Assembly: GCA_945862465.1 (NCBI GenBank)
Contig: CAMAYO010000019.1
Coordinates: forward strand, 1 to 36,989
Length of the DNA: 36,989 nt
Direction of reading: 5' to 3'
Origin: Pseudorhodobacter antarcticus
Lineage (GTDB): Bacteria > Pseudomonadota > Alphaproteobacteria > Rhodobacterales > Rhodobacteraceae
Below the pieces are notes generated by a model. That model searched no databases, was not told the DNA's origin, and worked only from the letters and a program-made list of their open reading frames with translations. Shown one piece after another: positions 7,586 to 14,145 of this stretch (position 1 is the first letter of the stretch; every line of letters begins with the position of its first letter). The position numbers were made by a program, and so were the translations under genes.

Positions 7586-8344
7586 ATGGCGCATCTCTCT
7601 GCCCCGGCTTTTGCAGCTGCGATGGCGATCACCCTTTTCGCGGGCTTTGTGAAGGGGGCTGTGGGTTTTGCTATGCCCATGATCATGATGGCGGCATTTT
7701 CCTCGTTCCTACCGCCAGAATTGGCGTTGGCGGGTTTGATTTTGCCCACCTTCGTCACCAACCTGTCGCAAGCCTTCCGCCAAGGCTTGCAGCCCGCTTT
7801 GGGCACGATGCGCCGCTATTGGCGGATGTTGGTGGCGACGGTGGTGTTCATCGTGATCTCGTCGGCTTTTGTCTATGTTATCCCGCACAAGCTGTTTTTG
7901 CTGCTGCTGGGCGTGCCGATCACGGCCTTTGCGATAGCGCAACTGGCGGGCCTGAAACTGGCGTTGAAATTGCAGCAACGCACCCGTGCAGAGTGGATTT
8001 TGGGCTCTGTGGGGGGGCTTTACGGCGGGGTGTCAGGGATTTGGGGGCCACCCTTGCTGGTGTATCTTCTGTCGATCGGCGCTGACAAGCGCGAGACGGT
8101 GCGCGTGCAAGGTGTGGTGTTCCTGATCGGCGCGTTTGTCTTGCTGCTGGCACATGTGCATTCGGGCGTGATCACACTGGAAACGGGGGCGTTTTCGGTG
8201 GCGCTGACGGTGCCAGCGCAACTGGGGCAGATGGCGGGCACTTGGGTGCAAGACCGGCTAGACCAAAGCCGTTTTCGGCGCTGGACGCAGGTGTTGTTGG
8301 TGCTGACGGGCCTGAACTTGGCCCGTCTGGCGCTGGTGGGTTAG
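7586..8344 (+). CDS. TauE/SafE-family membrane permease
   Basis: 252 aa, about eight hydrophobic segments, with the family pattern [14 protein letters not shown] in the first helix and the repeat-like [19 protein letters not shown] in the second half. TauE/SafE proteins export sulfite, sulfoacetate or related anions, or import some organosulfur acids; the substrate here is unknown. A GTG at 7574 is in frame, but the ATG at 7586 is preferred because GGTGGAG lies 6 bases upstream of it. The gene is divergent from mcd and ends convergently with pckA, sharing TTAG at 8341-8344. Confidence 0.8.
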
Positions 8345-9936
8345 ATGGCGGCGGCCTTCACATCATCGTCGATGAAGGGCAGGTATTGCGCGAAGTTGGC
8401 GGCAAACATCGCCACCAGTTTGCGCGCTTGCGCGTCATAATCTGCCGCAGAGCCCCAAGTGCGGCGCGGATCTAGCAGGGCGTCATCCACGCCCGCCAAA
8501 GCCACCGGCACATCAAAGCCAAAGTTGGGATCCTTGCGGAAGTTAACAGCATTCAGCGACCCGTCCAACGCCGCTGCCAGCAAAGCGCGGGTGGCTTTGA
8601 TGGGCATGCGCTTGCCCACACCGTAAGCCCCGCCTGTCCAACCCGTGTTCACTAGCCAGCAGGTGGCACCATGCTTGGCAATCTTTTCTTCCAGCAATTT
8701 TCCGTAAACTTCCGGCCTGCGCGGCATAAAGGGCGCACCAAAACAGGTTGAGAAGGTGGGTTGCGGCTCTGTTACCCCCCGCTCGGTCCCCGCTACCTTT
8801 GAGGTGAAGCCCGACAAAAAGTGATACATCGCCTGTGCGGGGGTCAGCCGTGCGATGGGGGGCAAAACGCCAAACGCATCGCAGGTCAACATCACAACGT
8901 GCTTAGGATGCCCGCCCAACCCTGTGGCCGAGGCGTTCGAGATATAGTCCAAAGGATAAGCACAGCGCGTGTTGGCGGTTAGGCTGTCATCCTCAAAATC
9001 GAGCACGAAGGTTTCGGGGTTGTGCACCATGTTTTCCACCACGGTGGCAAAGCGGTGCGTGGTGGCGAAAATCTCTGGCTCGGCCTCGGCGGATAGGTTG
9101 ATGGTTTTGGCGTAGCACCCACCTTCGAAGTTAAAGGTGCCCCGATCGCTCCACCCGTGTTCATCATCGCCGATCAGCGTGCGGGATGGGTCGGCGGACA
9201 GGGTGGTTTTGCCCGTGCCTGACAGGCCAAAGAACACTGCCGTGTCGACCGGATTGCCGATGGCGTGGTTGGCGCTGCAATGCATGGGCATGACGCCCGT
9301 GTCGGTGAGCAGATAGTTCAGCAGGGTAAAGACGGCTTTCTTATTCTCGCCCGCATAGGCGGTGTTGGCGATCAAGATCAGCTTGCGGTCAAAGTTCAGC
9401 GCAATCACGGTTTCGCTGCGGCAACCGTGGCGGGCCGGATCAGCCTTGAAGGTGGGGCAGTTGATCACTGTCCACGCGGGTGCAAAACTGTCCAACTCTG
9501 CCCGCTCGGGACGGCGCAGCAAGTGGCGGATGAACAGCCCGTGCCACGCCAGTTCCGTCACCATGCGCAGATCAACGCGGTGGGTCGGGTCGGCGCCAGC
9601 GTAAAGATCCTGCACAAAATAATCGCGGCCCTGCATATGGGCCAGCATATCGGCGTAAAGCTGATCAAAAGCGGCGGGCGTCATGGGGGCGTTGTTTTCC
9701 CACCAGATCGTGCCTTCCACCGAAGGGGATCGCACCACGAACTTGTCTTTCGGTGAGCGCCCCGTAAAGCGCCCCGTTTCACACAAAAACGCGCCGCCAA
9801 GGCCCAGCTTGCCCTCGCCCCGCTGCACGGCGGCGTTGACCAAAGCGGGTTCGAGCTGGTTGTAATACACGCGCCCCAGCCCCGAAATACCCTGATGCTC
9901 CAGCCGCATGGCCGGGTTCACGCGTCCTTCAGTCAT
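8341..9936 (-). CDS. pckA: Phosphoenolpyruvate carboxykinase (ATP)
   Basis: 531 aa, the usual length for the ATP-dependent enzyme, which converts oxaloacetate and ATP to phosphoenolpyruvate, CO2 and ADP at the entry of gluconeogenesis. Visible are the substrate-binding [12 protein letters not shown] (about 56-67), [10 protein letters not shown] (191-200), the kinase-1a P-loop GLSGTGKT (237-244) and the metal-binding DDEHGW (257-262). The frame is open 8 codons upstream to an ATG at 9960; 9936 ([12 protein letters not shown]) is chosen because it matches the usual start region. Divergent from chvI, an arrangement common in Rhodobacteraceae and Rhizobiales. Two CceR-like repeats lie about 155-185 bp upstream. 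Confidence 0.95.
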
Positions 9937-10277
9937 TCTGCAAGCTCCCATCATCGCCAAACGGCGATTTCCTTGATTTCAACCCTGACGGCCGCGCCAA
10001 CAGCCGCCGCACAGGCCCCGGGCCAACAGGGCCTGCGCAAAATGTCTATAACATGCAGATTTCAAAGGGGAAAAGTGCTGAATTGCAGCGTTAGCGCAAC
10101 CATCCTTAGGTTAGCGCAACCAAATGCACCCTGTATGCACACCGAGGGCGGTTTTGCCAAAATCGGTGACGCGCGGCACGAAAATGCCACAAAGTATTAA
10201 CTTAAGGGTTGCAACCTACCCCAAAGCGCAGAATACTGCCGTTAATTAGACCTAAAAGTATAGATTGGAACCGTATT
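9937..10277. other. Divergent pckA-chvI intergenic region
   Basis: 341 bp without a convincing gene; a short plus-strand frame through it shows no family features and no ribosome binding site. It must hold the promoters for both pckA and chvI. The only strong structure seen is the tandem repeat at 10090-10122. The 60 bases before chvI are AT-rich (TTAATTAG, AAAAGTATAGA) and probably contain its promoter, but no confident -35/-10 pair was found. Confidence 0.6.
10090..10122. promoter_or_regulatory. Tandem CceR-like operators between pckA and chvI
   Basis: GTTAGCGCAACCA occurs twice as an exact 13-bp direct repeat (10090-10102 and 10110-10122), start-to-start distance 20 bp, about two helical turns. 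Each copy keeps 10 of 12 positions of the LacI-type palindrome GTTAGCGCTAAC recalled for the Rhodobacter carbon regulator CceR, which activates gluconeogenic genes. The assignment is an inference; direct repetition on one helix face itself suggests cooperative protein binding. Confidence 0.5.
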
Positions 10278-10979
10278 ATGGCACGGATTGCCCTTGTAGA
10301 CGATGACCGCAACATTCTGACCTCGGTGGCGATGACGCTGGAATCCGAAGGGTTTGAGGTTGAAACCTTTAACGATGGCCAATCCGCGCTTGACGCCTTT
10401 AGCAGGCGAATGCCCGACATGGCGGTGCTGGATGTAAAGCTGCCGCGCATGGATGGGATGGACCTGTTGCAGCGTCTGCGCGGCAAAACACGCATTCCGG
10501 TGATCTTTCTCAGCTCAAAAGACGATGAGATCGACGAAGTTCTGGGCCTGCGCATGGGGGCCGATGATTATGTGAAAAAGCCCTTCAGTCAGCGCATCTT
10601 GCTGGAACGTATCCGTGCCCTGCTGCGCCGCCAAGACCCAAGCCCCGCCGCCGAGCTTGCCAATTTGGAAGACATCCGCGTGCTAGAGCGCGGCCATTTG
10701 CGGATGGACCCCTTGCGCCACGCCGTGGAATGGAGGGGGCAGGAAGTGGCCCTGACCGTGACCGAATTTATGCTGCTGCAAACCTTGGCACAGCGGCCGG
10801 GCTTTGTGAAAAGCCGCGAACAGTTGATGGATGTGGCTTATGACGATCAAGTCTATGTCGACGACCGCACGATCGACAGCCATATCAAACGTCTGCGCAA
10901 GAAGATGCGGGGGGCCGATGACAGTTTCAATGCTATCGAAACGCTCTACGGCATTGGTTACCGCTACATCGAAGAATGA
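10278..10979 (+). CDS. chvI: Response regulator ChvI (OmpR/PhoB family)
   Basis: 233 aa. The receiver domain (about 1-120) has the acidic pocket Asp8-Asp9-Asp10, phospho-acceptor Asp52 ([11 protein letters not shown]), Ser79/Ser80 and Lys101. The C-terminal winged helix (about 135-230) has the OmpR-type recognition segment [16 protein letters not shown]. The frame is open upstream to 10209, but the ATG at 10278 starts exactly at the receiver domain ([10 protein letters not shown]). ChvI is the DNA-binding partner of ChvG; in rhizobia and Agrobacterium the pair responds to acid and envelope signals. Context with pckA and HprK is the conserved alphaproteobacterial arrangement. The stop overlaps chvG by 4 bp. 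Confidence 0.92.
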
Positions 10980-12106
10980 CAGCGATTTTCCAAGGCAACC
11001 CAGCAAAAAGGCCAAAAGTCCGGTCAGAACGGGCCGCTTTGCGCTGGCCGCGCCTGTCTTTGATGCGCGTGCCTTTGGCGGGCCAGATTGTTTTGGCCAA
11101 TATTTTGGTGCTTTTTGTCCTCATCGCGGGGATCTTGGCCTTTCAACCAGTGTGGCCCGTGCCAGCGCAGCTTTGGCTGATCTTTGCCGCAGCTTTTGGG
11201 GTTTGTATTGCTTTGTCGCTGGCCTTGGCCACGGCCATCACACGCCCCTTGGCAGCCCTTGCCGCTGCTGCTGAAATTGGCCGCGTGCCGGGTGGGCGCA
11301 CCATCGCCCCCGGTCGTGTTTGGATCCCCGACCTCTCCGCCCGCCCTGACGAAATTGGTCGCCTGTCCGTCGCCCTGCGCAGCATGGTCACCGCCCTGTG
11401 TGATCGGATCGATGCCAACGAACATTTCGCCGCCGATGTCAGCCATGAAATCAAAAACCCTCTCGCGAGCCTGCGCTCGGCCGTGGGCGCTTTGCGCATG
11501 GTCACCAAGGTGGAACAGCGCGAAAAACTTTTGGAGGTGATCGACCATGATGTGCGCCGCTTAGACCGTTTGGTCAGCGACATCTCATCTGCCTCGCGGC
11601 TTGAATCTGATCTGGTGAAGGAAGAGGAAGAGGCGTTTAATCTGCGCAAGACCCTGATCAACTTGGCCGACCATCTGGCCACCCAAGCGCAATGGAAAGA
11701 CGTCGATTTGATCACCGATTTTCCCGATCATCCCCTGACCCTCGTGGGGATAGAGGCGCGCCTGGCGCAGGTCTTTGTCAACCTGATCACCAACGCGATT
11801 TCCTTTTGCAGCGCAGGCGATGCCGTGCGCATCTGGGCGCGCCAGCGCGAGAATCGTGTCTTGGTCGTCGTCGAAGACACCGGCCCCGGCATTCCCGAAC
11901 AGGCGCTGACCAAGGTGTTTCAGCGGTTTTATTCCGAACGACCAGACAGTGACTTTGGCAACCACTCTGGCCTTGGGCTTGCCATATCAAAACAAATTGT
12001 CGAAGCGCATGGCGGCGTGATCTGGGCTGAAAACATCCGGGCTGAGGGGGCCGACCCCCGTTCTGCCCCCTTGGGCGCGCGCTTTGTCGTGGGCCTGCCG
12101 GTATGA
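10976..12106 (+). CDS. chvG: Sensor histidine kinase ChvG, lacking the periplasmic sensor domain
   Basis: 376 aa. TM1 is about residues 37-56 and TM2 about 66-88, with only about 9 residues between them; typical ChvG proteins are about 550-600 aa with a periplasmic domain here. HAMP-like residues follow (ITRPLAAL), then the H box [19 protein letters not shown] with His157, N box [10 protein letters not shown]1 DTGPGIPE and G2 HSGLGLAI. The dimerisation and catalytic domains look intact, and the frame is continuous with a normal ATGA overlap to chvI, so this looks like a clean loss of the sensor domain rather than a frameshift. The stop overlaps hprK (ATGA). Signal sensing must be through the membrane, cytoplasmic partners or another protein. 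Confidence 0.88.
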
Positions 12107-12522
12107 ACACGCAAATCCTTCACGCAAGTTGCGTCGCTTGGCAGGGGCGTGGGGCGCTGATTTTGGGGCAGTCGGGGGCGGGAAAATCGGCGCTGGCTTT
12201 GCAGTTGATGGCTTTAGGTGCTGATTTGGTATCTGACGACCGCACCGAACTGCTGGCCGAAGCCGATGCGCTGACGGCCCGCGCTCCAGCCACGATACAG
12301 GGCCTGATCGAAGCGCGGGGTGTTGGCCTGATGCGCGTGCCCTTTGTGCCGCAGGCCGAGATTGCTCTGGTTATCGATCTGGATCAGCCCGAACCCAACC
12401 GCCTGCCGCCACAGCGCGAGATCACTCTTCTGGGGATAAGTCGTCCTTTGGTGCTGGCCGTGCCACAGCCCCATTTTCCTGCGGCCATTCTGTGCTATCT
12501 TAAGGGTTCACGTTTCGCCTGA
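12103..12522 (+). CDS. hprK: HPr kinase/phosphorylase, short alphaproteobacterial form
   Basis: 139 aa, equivalent only to the C-terminal catalytic domain of Firmicutes HprK (about 310 aa); this short form is normal in Alphaproteobacteria. P-loop GQSGAGKS at residues 22-29, then LVSDDRTEL and the conserved [12 protein letters not shown] segment that contacts HPr. It phosphorylates HPr on Ser46 with ATP and reverses this by phosphorolysis. The ATG overlaps the chvG stop by 4 bp, so kinase and two-component system are co-transcribed; rapZ follows after 22 bp. Confidence 0.9.
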
Positions 12523-12544: not shown

Positions 12545-13477
12545 ATGACCGACCCCGCCGAAAGCCTAAGCTTTCACCATCTTGTTCTGGTTACCGGACC
12601 TTCCGGTGCTGGCCGGTCAACCGTGTTTCACGCGCTAGAGGATCTGGGCTACGAGGTGATCGACAATCTGCCCCTTAGCCTGATTCCCCGCCTGCTTGAT
12701 GGCCCACCGCTGGACAGGCCCATCGCGCTGGGGCTGGATGTGCGCAACCGCGATTTCAGCACCGCTGCCGCGATCGAGTTGATCGACCGCCTGACCCGTG
12801 ACCCCCGTGTGACGCTAGAGGTGCTTTATCTGGATTGCGCTGCGGGCATCTTGCAAACCCGCTACAACCAAACCCGCCGCCGCCACCCTTTGGCCGAGAC
12901 GCTATCCCCCAGCGAGGGGATTGACCGCGAGATTGATCTTTTGGTTCCCATTCGGGCGCGGGCGGACCATTTGATCGACACCTCTGATCTATCGCCACAT
13001 GACCTGAAGGCCGAAATAGCCCATTGGTTCGCCCAAGGCACCGAAACGCGCTTGGCCATTTCGGTACAAAGTTTCAGCTACAAGCGCGGCCTGCCGCGCG
13101 GGGTCGACATGGTGTTTGACTGCCGATTCTTAAGCAATCCCCATTGGGTGCCCGCATTGCGCGACAAAGACGGCCGCGATGCGGAAGTTTCTGCCTATGT
13201 TCAAGCTGATCTGAATTTTGCGGCTTTCTTTCAAAAACTGCAGGAAATCATCTTTATTTTGCTTCCCGCCCAGCAGGAAGAGGGCAAAGCCCACCTAACA
13301 ATCGGCTTTGGCTGCACTGGCGGACAGCACCGCTCTGTTGCAGTTGCAGAAAAATTGGCCAAAGTGCTTGCAGAAGCGGGCTGGCAGGTGTCAAAACGTC
13401 ATCGAGAACTTGAGCGGCGGGGAACTTCCTTACCACTTGAGGGGATCAGTGGCGAAACAGGGGTAGGTCGCGGGTGA
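12545..13477 (+). CDS. rapZ: RapZ / YvcJ-type nucleotide-binding protein
   Basis: 310 aa. An N-terminal kinase-like domain with P-loop GPSGAGRS (18-25) and Walker-B-like region, and a C-terminal domain with the family signature [12 protein letters not shown]. In E. coli RapZ delivers small RNAs that control glmS to RNase E; in Alphaproteobacteria its target is less clear. Position between hprK and the EIIA gene is conserved in Proteobacteria. No good ribosome binding site is seen before the ATG at 12545, so it may depend on translation from hprK. Its stop overlaps the GTG start of the EIIA gene (GTGA). Confidence 0.92.
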
Positions 13478-13872
13478 TCGGAGTTGTCATCGTCGCACAC
13501 GGGGGTCTGGCCAGAGAGTATCTCTTGGCCGTTGAACACGTTGTGGGAAAACAAAGCGATATGCAGGCCATCTCGATTGAAGATGATTGTGATCGCGACA
13601 AGAAACAGGCCGAAATCTGTGCAGCGGCCAATGCCGTGGATCACGGCGAAGGTGTGGTGGTGGTGACCGATATGTTCGGCGGCTCACCCTCGAACCTGTC
13701 GCTGATGGCGGGCTGTGCGGGGTCAGAGCGGCGGATCATCTACGGTGCCAACCTGCCCATGTTGATCAAACTGGCCAAATCCCGTGCCTTGCCCGTCAAT
13801 GACGCGGTCGCGGCGGCTTTGGAAGCGGGCCGCAAGTATATCAACAGCCTTGATCTGGGCGTGGGGGCCTAA
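13474..13872 (+). CDS. PTS mannose-family EIIA component (regulatory)
   Basis: 132 aa single-domain EIIA-Man. The probable phosphorylated His is His9 in [10 protein letters not shown], followed by the family pattern [10 protein letters not shown]. It accepts phosphate from HPr-His15. No sugar permease (EIIB/C/D) gene lies here, so a regulatory role is likely, as in other Alphaproteobacteria. Start is GTG at 13474, overlapping the rapZ stop by 4 bp. HPr follows after 3 bp. Confidence 0.92.
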
Positions 13873-13875
13873 CAC

Positions 13876-14145
13876 ATGGCCCAGCTTTCGCTTTTGATTG
13901 TGAATGAAAAAGGGCTGCACGCCCGCGCCTCGGCCAAATTTGTCGAGGTGGTGGAAGAGTTTGACGCAGCCGCCCAAGTGACGCGCGATGGCATGTCGGT
14001 GTCGGGTGACAGCATCATGGGGCTTTTGATGTTGGCAGCCTCGCGCGGAACCACTATTGAGGTAGAGACAAGCGGCCCTCAGGCCGAGGCGCTTGGCATG
14101 GCGCTGACCGCACTTGTGGCCGATCGCTTTGGTGAAGACCGCTAA
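13876..14145 (+). CDS. ptsH: Phosphocarrier protein HPr
   Basis: 89 aa. Has the catalytic His15 (GLHARAS) for phosphoenolpyruvate-derived phosphate and Ser46 (SGDSIMGLL), the site used by HprK. Having both sites means HPr can integrate PEP state (via enzyme I, not in this window) and ATP/phosphate state (via HprK encoded 1.4 kb upstream). Typical length. It is the last clear PTS gene of the operon; the acyltransferase follows after 28 bp. Confidence 0.95.
   Translation: MAQLSLLIVNEKGLHARASAKFVEVVEEFDAAAQVTRDGMSVSGDSIMGLLMLAASRGTTIEVETSGPQAEALGMALTALVADRFGEDR

Follow-up and report, generated by a model that had tools for sequence, protein, structure and literature searches.

A ChvG-type sensor kinase without a periplasmic domain in a five-species clade of Rhodobacteraceae

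The chvI-chvG-hprK locus

In Alphaproteobacteria, the conserved ChvG-ChvI system acts as a switch in envelope stress and host interaction. The window (the whole analysed stretch of 36,989 nucleotides from Pseudorhodobacter antarcticus) contains a chvI-chvG-hprK gene cluster with PTS genes downstream and pckA divergent from chvI (Table 1). The chvG start codon overlaps the chvI stop codon by 4 bp (ATGA, 10976-10979), and its TGA likewise overlaps the ATG of hprK (ATGA, 12103-12106), both overlaps being visible in the sequence as originally predicted. The gene order, taken from the open reading frames and Pfam matches of the window, is that of a ChvG/ExoS orthologue and agrees with the surroundings and operon known for ChvG/ExoS, as far as the available part of the source describes them (PMC4550343). 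Synteny is joined by phylogeny in identifying the gene as ChvG, since the HisKA-HATPase core of its product groups with ChvG of relatives in similarity searches and trees.

Table 1. Genes and protein features of the chvG locus, in window coordinates
Feature	Position	Strand	Basis
pckA, PEP carboxykinase (control gene), divergent from chvI	8341..9960	-	ORF, Pfam
chvI, OmpR-family response regulator (receiver and winged helix)	10278..10979	+	Pfam Response_reg, Trans_reg_C
Short chvG, sensor histidine kinase, 376 residues, ATG start	10976..12106	+	ORF
Cytoplasmic N-terminus, residues 1-30, LGEDW motif lost	10976..11065	+	Alignment, motif count
TM1, residues 33-55, putative counterpart of native TM1; polar Asn42 retained	11072..11140	+	Alignment, model, hydrophobicity
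Extracytoplasmic linker, residues 56-63, replacing 174-224 residues	11141..11164	+	Model, hydrophobicity, length count
TM2, residues 64-88, putative counterpart of native TM2	11165..11239	+	Alignment, model, hydrophobicity
HAMP domain, residues 84-141	11225..11398	+	Pfam above cut-off
HisKA/DHp domain, residues 148-211, phospho-acceptor His157 in HEIKNP	11417..11608	+	Pfam above cut-off, alignment
HATPase_c catalytic domain, residues 259-375	11750..12100	+	Pfam above cut-off
hprK, short HPr kinase/phosphorylase, free of the clade-specific burst	12103..12522	+	ORF, Pfam
rapZ (control gene)	12545..13477	+	Pfam
EIIA-man PTS component (control gene)	13474..13872	+	Pfam
HPr (control gene)	13876..14145	+	Pfam

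A direct repeat with a spacing of exactly 20 bp, GTTAGCGCAA, lies between pckA and chvI (10090-10119). The spaced repeat upstream of chvI is retained in all five short forms described below, and TAGCGCAA is present in 71 of the 92 long-form upstream rows, some of which contain almost no upstream DNA. The pair occurs in 15 of the 16 genus genomes, about once per genome (G000 and G013 have a second match with two mismatches). This repeat was considered as a motif marking the ChvI regulon and rejected because of its roughly single occurrence per genome; it may belong to pckA, and is likely a dedicated operator, as yet putative, of either pckA or chvI.

Architecture of the short ChvG

The original prediction held that this ChvG lacks the periplasmic domain and that its two transmembrane helices are joined by about nine residues, and both claims stand. 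In Pfam scans of the short ChvG, Stimulus_sens_1 (PF13756) was not found and Sensor_TM1 (PF13755) reached 14.5 bits, below its cut-off of 26.6; among three long forms scanned, PF13755 was found in all and PF13756 in one (L106), so even long forms do not all match PF13756. Hydrophobicity is highest in two segments, residues 34-59 and 64-89, and an AlphaFold2 model of modest confidence (mean pLDDT 64) places helices at 33-55 and 64-100 around a loop at 56-63. The linker thus measured comprises about 8-9 residues, compared with 174-224 residues (median 183) from TM1 to the QMF of TM2 in the 70 of 84 long rows in which this distance was measurable. Intramembrane-sensing kinases are recognized by a linker of less than about 25 residues between two transmembrane helices, and the short ChvG has this architecture.

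In the alignment, the two helices match the native TM1 and TM2, with the intervening region gone; MAFFT put the gap before TM1, and equating the short TM1 with the native one is our own reading of the alignment. The polar Asn42 of TM1 is retained in 34/34 rows of alignment A1 and in 78/78 long rows read. An N-terminal cytoplasmic segment has been lost as well: 87 of 90 long Rhodobacteraceae rows contain its LGEDW motif, which no short row has. The LGEDW segment of long ChvG (e.g. L042, L106) is also missing from several diverged long forms.

The predicted integrity of the H, N and G boxes is confirmed by alignment A1, in which His157 and the N and G boxes are intact and the catalytic boxes are invariant. 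The partner ChvI retains its phosphoacceptor Asp52, and with these residues in place the short ChvG is predicted to phosphorylate ChvI. Eight formerly conserved positions of ChvI have changed. Some belong to the receiver, the residue that follows the phosphoacceptor being one of them, and the others are residues 169, 181 and 231; the most diverged region of the protein is its inter-domain linker. The segment that we take to be the DNA-recognition helix is unchanged in the rows printed, so the output regulon has probably been kept.

Occurrence in the genus and family

A ChvG match (E 1e-60) was found in 15 of 16 genus genomes, the exception at this threshold being the 75% complete G014. The short form was found in five of these 15 members (G000, G004, G005, G013 and G015; open frames of 381-394 codons), which form one clade. 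Nine members have a long ChvG (583-609 codons), and in G010 the gene is interrupted by a contig end yet contains periplasmic sequence. Genome size is low in the five short-form members, at 2.9-3.2 Mb, the other eleven genus members having 3.4-4.9 Mb. An assembly, frameshift or other read-level error was considered and rejected, because five separately assembled genomes carry the same structure with no stops inside the ChvG match. Named copies of the short form come from metagenome-assembled genomes, the kinase cores of uncultured Rhodobacterales bacterium Ja1_bin-3778 (L040) and Rhodobacteraceae bacterium Jr-16oct17-247 (L041) being identical to those of G005 and G013, respectively.

The family was sampled with 394 genomes from 393 genera, of which 352 contain the kinase core (E 1e-50) and 351 match PF13755. 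Among 150 matches listed, out of the 352 family genomes with the core, G000 is the sole short form, and comparison of the two match lists by eye gave four genomes with the core and without PF13755 (G000, G108, G366 and G422). A closer look at 12 family genomes with missing or weaker PF13755 matches, and then at nine more (two of them repeated), revealed two further short ChvG proteins, in G204 (row L176, a 348-codon frame) and G108 (row L181, a 385-codon frame). Both retain TM1, a linker of roughly 5-10 residues by our reading, TM2 and the kinase, and are adjoined by genes for ChvI, HprK and RapZ. The remaining complete frames among the closely inspected genomes have 500-613 codons. ChvG is present in pieces only in G422, G189, G263 and G185 (contig ends or split frames), runs off the contig in G148, and gave no match at E 1e-40 in G190. 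In G352 (326), one of the listed matches, a contig end separates the gene from its sensor part, which is on a different contig. In G185 (contig C328, 14439-16030) the ChvG kinase and Sensor_TM1 appear as two frames of 255 and 368 codons, reflecting either a split gene or an assembly error.

PF13755 scores were 3.0e-13 in G341, 2.9e-12 in G397 and 2.3e-7 in G204. An overlooked short form with a strong PF13755 match, among the roughly 200 family places outside the listed matches, is unlikely, because even G204, with its well-kept TM1, scored only at that last level. Outside the family, nine of 16 genomes searched from the class gave a match, with no short form among them. Four long, diverged ChvG proteins (L174, L178, L179 and L180, from G353, G298, G180 and G150) match Sensor_TM1 weakly and have reading frames of 500-548 codons, and there may be a wider gradient of sensor change across the family.

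Ancestry and number of losses

The five focal short forms are a single clade in four trees with support of 100, including the kinase-core tree (SH-aLRT 100) and the chvIG tree (100/100). The chvIG trees give weak support for the place of this clade within the genus, whereas a tree of rapZ, EIIA and hprK nests it beside the long-form genomes G009 and G007 (support 99/94), which places the loss of the sensor within the genus.

Both the weakly supported place in the chvIG trees and a long stem branch might be expected if the short chvI-chvG pair had been acquired from an unsampled lineage instead of arising by local deletion and a burst of change, and the next best match outside the clade, after G009 and G007, is G151 of another genus. 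Such an origin is nevertheless very unlikely. The two best outside matches are the very sisters in the neighbour-gene tree, and the pair sits at the ancestral location. Fourfold-site distances between short forms and sisters (0.45 for chvI and 0.53 for chvG) resemble those of hprK, rapZ and EIIA (0.46-0.55), so the split of the pair is not older than that of its neighbours. At 26 sister-diagnostic columns, the short forms have the sister residue at 10, the outgroup residue at 3 and a third residue at 13. Vertical descent of the short chvI-chvG pair is therefore the favoured reading of these comparisons.

The short forms of G204 and G108 probably represent losses independent of the focal clade, as judged from species placement and trees. 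The best tree containing both requires three changes, as do all 200 bootstrap trees, and the other best tree requires two (focal clade and G204). The G204 core has 65% identity to the focal core and up to 74% to long forms, but with the focal core far from everything these identities carry little weight by themselves. One origin for all short forms is disfavoured by the best trees and species placement; AU tests do not reject a single short clade, either with G204 and G108 (p 0.13) or with the focal clade and G204 (p 0.376). Distances in chvI/chvG from the focal clade to G204 and to G108 fall 8-19% short of what additivity would predict for independent losses; the hprK of G204 likewise falls 17% short, unlike its rapZ, and saturation could explain these values. 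It is a tentative proposal, somewhat less likely than not, that the periplasmic sensor ChvG of Alphaproteobacteria can be converted repeatedly and independently into a minimal two-helix membrane kinase, at the price of coordinated remodelling of TM2-HAMP and the response regulator, and that this is a path to intramembrane-type kinases; its odds are slightly lowered by the single origin that the AU tests leave unrejected.

A burst of change in chvI and chvG

The stem of the short clade measures 0.99 changes per column in the kinase-core tree, against a median end branch of 0.089, and 0.46 on the short side of the midpoint root in the chvI+chvG tree, where the end branches of the sisters measure 0.003-0.008. 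The excess divergence of the clade over its genus-long relatives is +0.90 in chvI and +0.97 in the chvG core, from distance means that include the duplicate rows L040/L041 (=L012/L014) and L043/L045 (=L019/L020). The corresponding values for six neighbours (pckA, hprK, rapZ, EIIA, HPr and an acyltransferase) are -0.05 to +0.14, where pckA, HPr and the acyltransferase are represented by two genus-long rows only and EIIA by rows with at least 60 shared columns.

The same contrast is found in columns conserved in at least 95% of long rows, with nine diverged rows (L031-L039, of which L031 and L032 belong to the same family) excluded from both the column and the distance counts. In the three fully covered short genomes, 23 of 374 conserved columns of chvI+chvG are replaced, compared with 1 of 569, in the acyltransferase, for the six neighbours (Fisher 5.8e-9); in all five short genomes the counts are 22/374 (chvI 8/179, chvG core 14/195) and 0/127 for hprK, rapZ and the covered part of EIIA (Fisher 0.002). 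These Fisher tests assume independent columns and describe one lineage. Within ChvG, the replacements are concentrated in TM2-HAMP (residues 65-147; 8/47, versus 6/149 in the rest of ChvG, Fisher 0.006), with 3/51 in DHp and 3/98 in CA; those of the HAMP domain lie at positions 86, 87, 90, 94 and 116.

These counts also bear on the suggestion, made in the original prediction, that the kinase responds to the PTS proteins encoded beside it. Cytoplasmic control by HPr, EIIA and HprK might be read from the conserved operon and its 4-bp overlaps; however, the operon is equally conserved around chvG in long-form relatives. Moreover, hprK, EIIA and HPr have excess divergences of -0.05, -0.02 and 0.08 and, in the three fully covered short genomes, 0 of 133 conserved columns replaced, and hence no signal of co-evolution. 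The suggestion is left unsupported, and PTS control is highly improbable.

The ratio of two-component system (TCS) to neighbour divergence is 1.91-2.02 in the five focal rows. It averages 1.01 (sd 0.09, maximum 1.19) in a reference panel of 75 named rows, whose selection for likeness to the query biases it low, and spans 1.65-3.12 in diverged long rows of other genera (L174, L177, L178, L179, L180 and L182), a set that is biased too, most of its rows having been chosen for weak sensor matches. Rows not chosen by ChvG likeness are in line with the panel, with ratios of 0.86-1.07 (genus-long rows L015-L024) and 0.85-1.20 (family rows L192-L203), the latter departing at 0-2 of the 14 ChvG sites and at none of the eight ChvI sites replaced in the focal clade. 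The chvI/chvG genes of L174, L178, L179 and L180 are fast-evolving relative to hprK and rapZ. Because diverged long forms have undergone bursts too, the burst is weakened as a signature of domain loss. Of the focal replaced sites, G204 departs at 4/14 in ChvG and 2/8 in ChvI, and G108 at 11/14 and 3/8; parallel change at these sites among short forms is not claimed, since 0-9 of the 14 ChvG sites are also altered in long forms of comparable divergence.

Present-day constraint

Comparison of clade members with one another gives a dN/dS of 0.033 in chvI and 0.070 in the chvG core, and branches inside the clade are short again in the kinase-core tree. The chvG kinase core is under purifying selection, and the prediction that the loss is stable agrees with this low ratio and with its presence in five species. 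Degeneration, in which chvG is on its way out of a reduced genome, would fit the small size of the short-form genomes, and relaxed selection could give a fast stem branch. It is extremely doubtful all the same in view of the strong purifying selection, the short internal branches, the invariant catalytic boxes and the frames free of internal stops in all five genomes.

Differences within the clade amount to 6-8% in HAMP, DHp and CA, 26% in TM2, 33% in TM1, 49% in the N-terminus and 77% in the linker. For TM1 the corresponding figure is 10% between genus-long rows, and 24% when 67 other long family rows are compared. The pattern suggests a maintained kinase on a hairpin that is loosely held except for Asn42 in TM1.

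Input to the short kinase

The five short forms have lost the periplasmic region, share one ancestry, keep an intact and constrained kinase core, and carry a stem burst in ChvG and ChvI but not in their neighbours. Our main reading, to which we assign a probability of about 0.5, is that this ChvG has no periplasmic input and has been retuned to an intrinsic basal set-point, its signal and activity state being deduced from sequence. In the ancestor of the clade, a canonical ChvG would have lost the periplasmic stimulus-sensing domain together with the N-terminal LGEDW segment, so that what remained was a membrane hairpin of two helices followed by HAMP, DHp and the catalytic domain. The short kinase would no longer read a periplasmic ligand or partner, and ChvI phosphorylation would be set by a basal autokinase/phosphatase balance that the changes in TM2-HAMP-DHp have reset and to which ChvI is adjusted, with the gross state of the membrane acting through the hairpin as a modulator at most. 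Shortening of ChvG would favour compensatory replacements both in the kinase itself and in ChvI, in agreement with the stem branch. Two observations count against this reading: the burst is not unique to short forms, and the conserved Asn42 may point to a specific function that the hairpin has retained.

Asn42 is equally an argument for a converted intramembrane sensor, whose hairpin would directly sense membrane lipid state or envelope tension, in the manner proposed for intramembrane-sensing kinases. The two helices with a linker of 8-9 residues recall SaeS, whose linker has nine residues and is described as optimised in the available part of PMC4388633, and both helices are retained in the two short forms of other genera. 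Available passages of PMC8343143 report that loss of phosphatidylcholine (PC) in Sinorhizobium meliloti activates ExoS at an unchanged ExoR level, and propose the transmembrane helices as the route. Unlike the optimised SaeS linker, however, that of the clade is highly variable (p-distance 0.77), and its TM1 varies more than TM1 does among genus-long rows (0.33 versus 0.10), a comparison that is not decisive given 0.24 in other long rows of the family and the hydrophobic swaps normal in transmembrane helices. Direct membrane sensing is accordingly possible but rather doubtful, and the intrinsic set-point is modestly favoured over it.

In Caulobacter, osmotic upshift raises ChvG-dependent ChvI phosphorylation and the periplasmic domain directs localisation, according to the accessible text of PMC9731502; by homology, the output of the short system is likely envelope homeostasis.

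The original prediction had set the missing domain against the ExoR/acid signal, and this comparison is a rhizobial one. The consulted sections of PMC4550343 report ExoR orthologues in five Rhodobacterales only and class C14-peptidase and Sel1 proteins as non-orthologous ExoR homologues. A Sel1 scan gave no match in G000, G010, G012 and G015, and other Sel1 frames in G002, G004, G005, G007 and G013. The Sel1 protein of most genus members is a caspase-Sel1 protein and not a Sel1-only one; that of G009 (L126:1111-2613) is a secreted caspase-like and Sel1 protein with a peptidoglycan-binding-like end, its domains being named by eye. Of the 11 genus members other than the short ones, eight have near full-length matches to the caspase-Sel1 protein, against none of the five short ones, of which G004 has weak matches to the Sel1 part. 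Joint loss of an ExoR-like partner and the sensor was considered on this basis and is kept as a lead only, because G007, G010 and G012 lack the caspase-Sel1 protein too and its absence is confounded by the generally smaller size of the short genomes.

Comparison with known systems

A search of the open-access literature found no earlier report of a ChvG without a periplasmic domain. A natural short ChvG beside sister species with the full domain allows one to ask which outputs need the domain, how a kinase rebalances after losing its input, and whether membrane helices carry signal, with the 14 ChvG and eight ChvI replacements as candidate compensatory sites.

The short ChvG shares with ChvG/ExoS (BvrS) of Alphaproteobacteria the orthologous core, the partner ChvI, the chvI-chvG-hprK order with PTS genes, and TM1/TM2; it differs in lacking the periplasmic region of 174-224 residues and the LGEDW segment, and in the replacement of conserved TM2-HAMP residues. 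The familiar intramembrane-sensing kinases, of the SaeS, LiaS, BceS, VraS and GraS type, are Firmicutes systems. Like them, the short ChvG has two transmembrane helices and a very short linker ahead of the kinase. By contrast with them, it would be derived by deletion from a periplasmic-sensing proteobacterial kinase, it retains HAMP, and a Pfam scan of its gene neighbours found no ABC transporter or Lia-type gene.

Two truncated kinases bear on its activity state. SaeS deprived of its membrane region is locked ON, as stated in the available part of PMC4388633, and the truncated ExoS of the exoS96::Tn5 mutant of S. meliloti acts as a constitutively active kinase, as stated in that of PMC10659215. 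The exoS96::Tn5 product is likewise an N-terminally truncated, kinase-active ChvG orthologue, but it comes from a laboratory insertion mutant, whereas the short ChvG is a natural, selected allele with both transmembrane helices. The short ChvG would work like an intramembrane-type kinase, and by descent it is a ChvG that departs from its kind in one defining feature.
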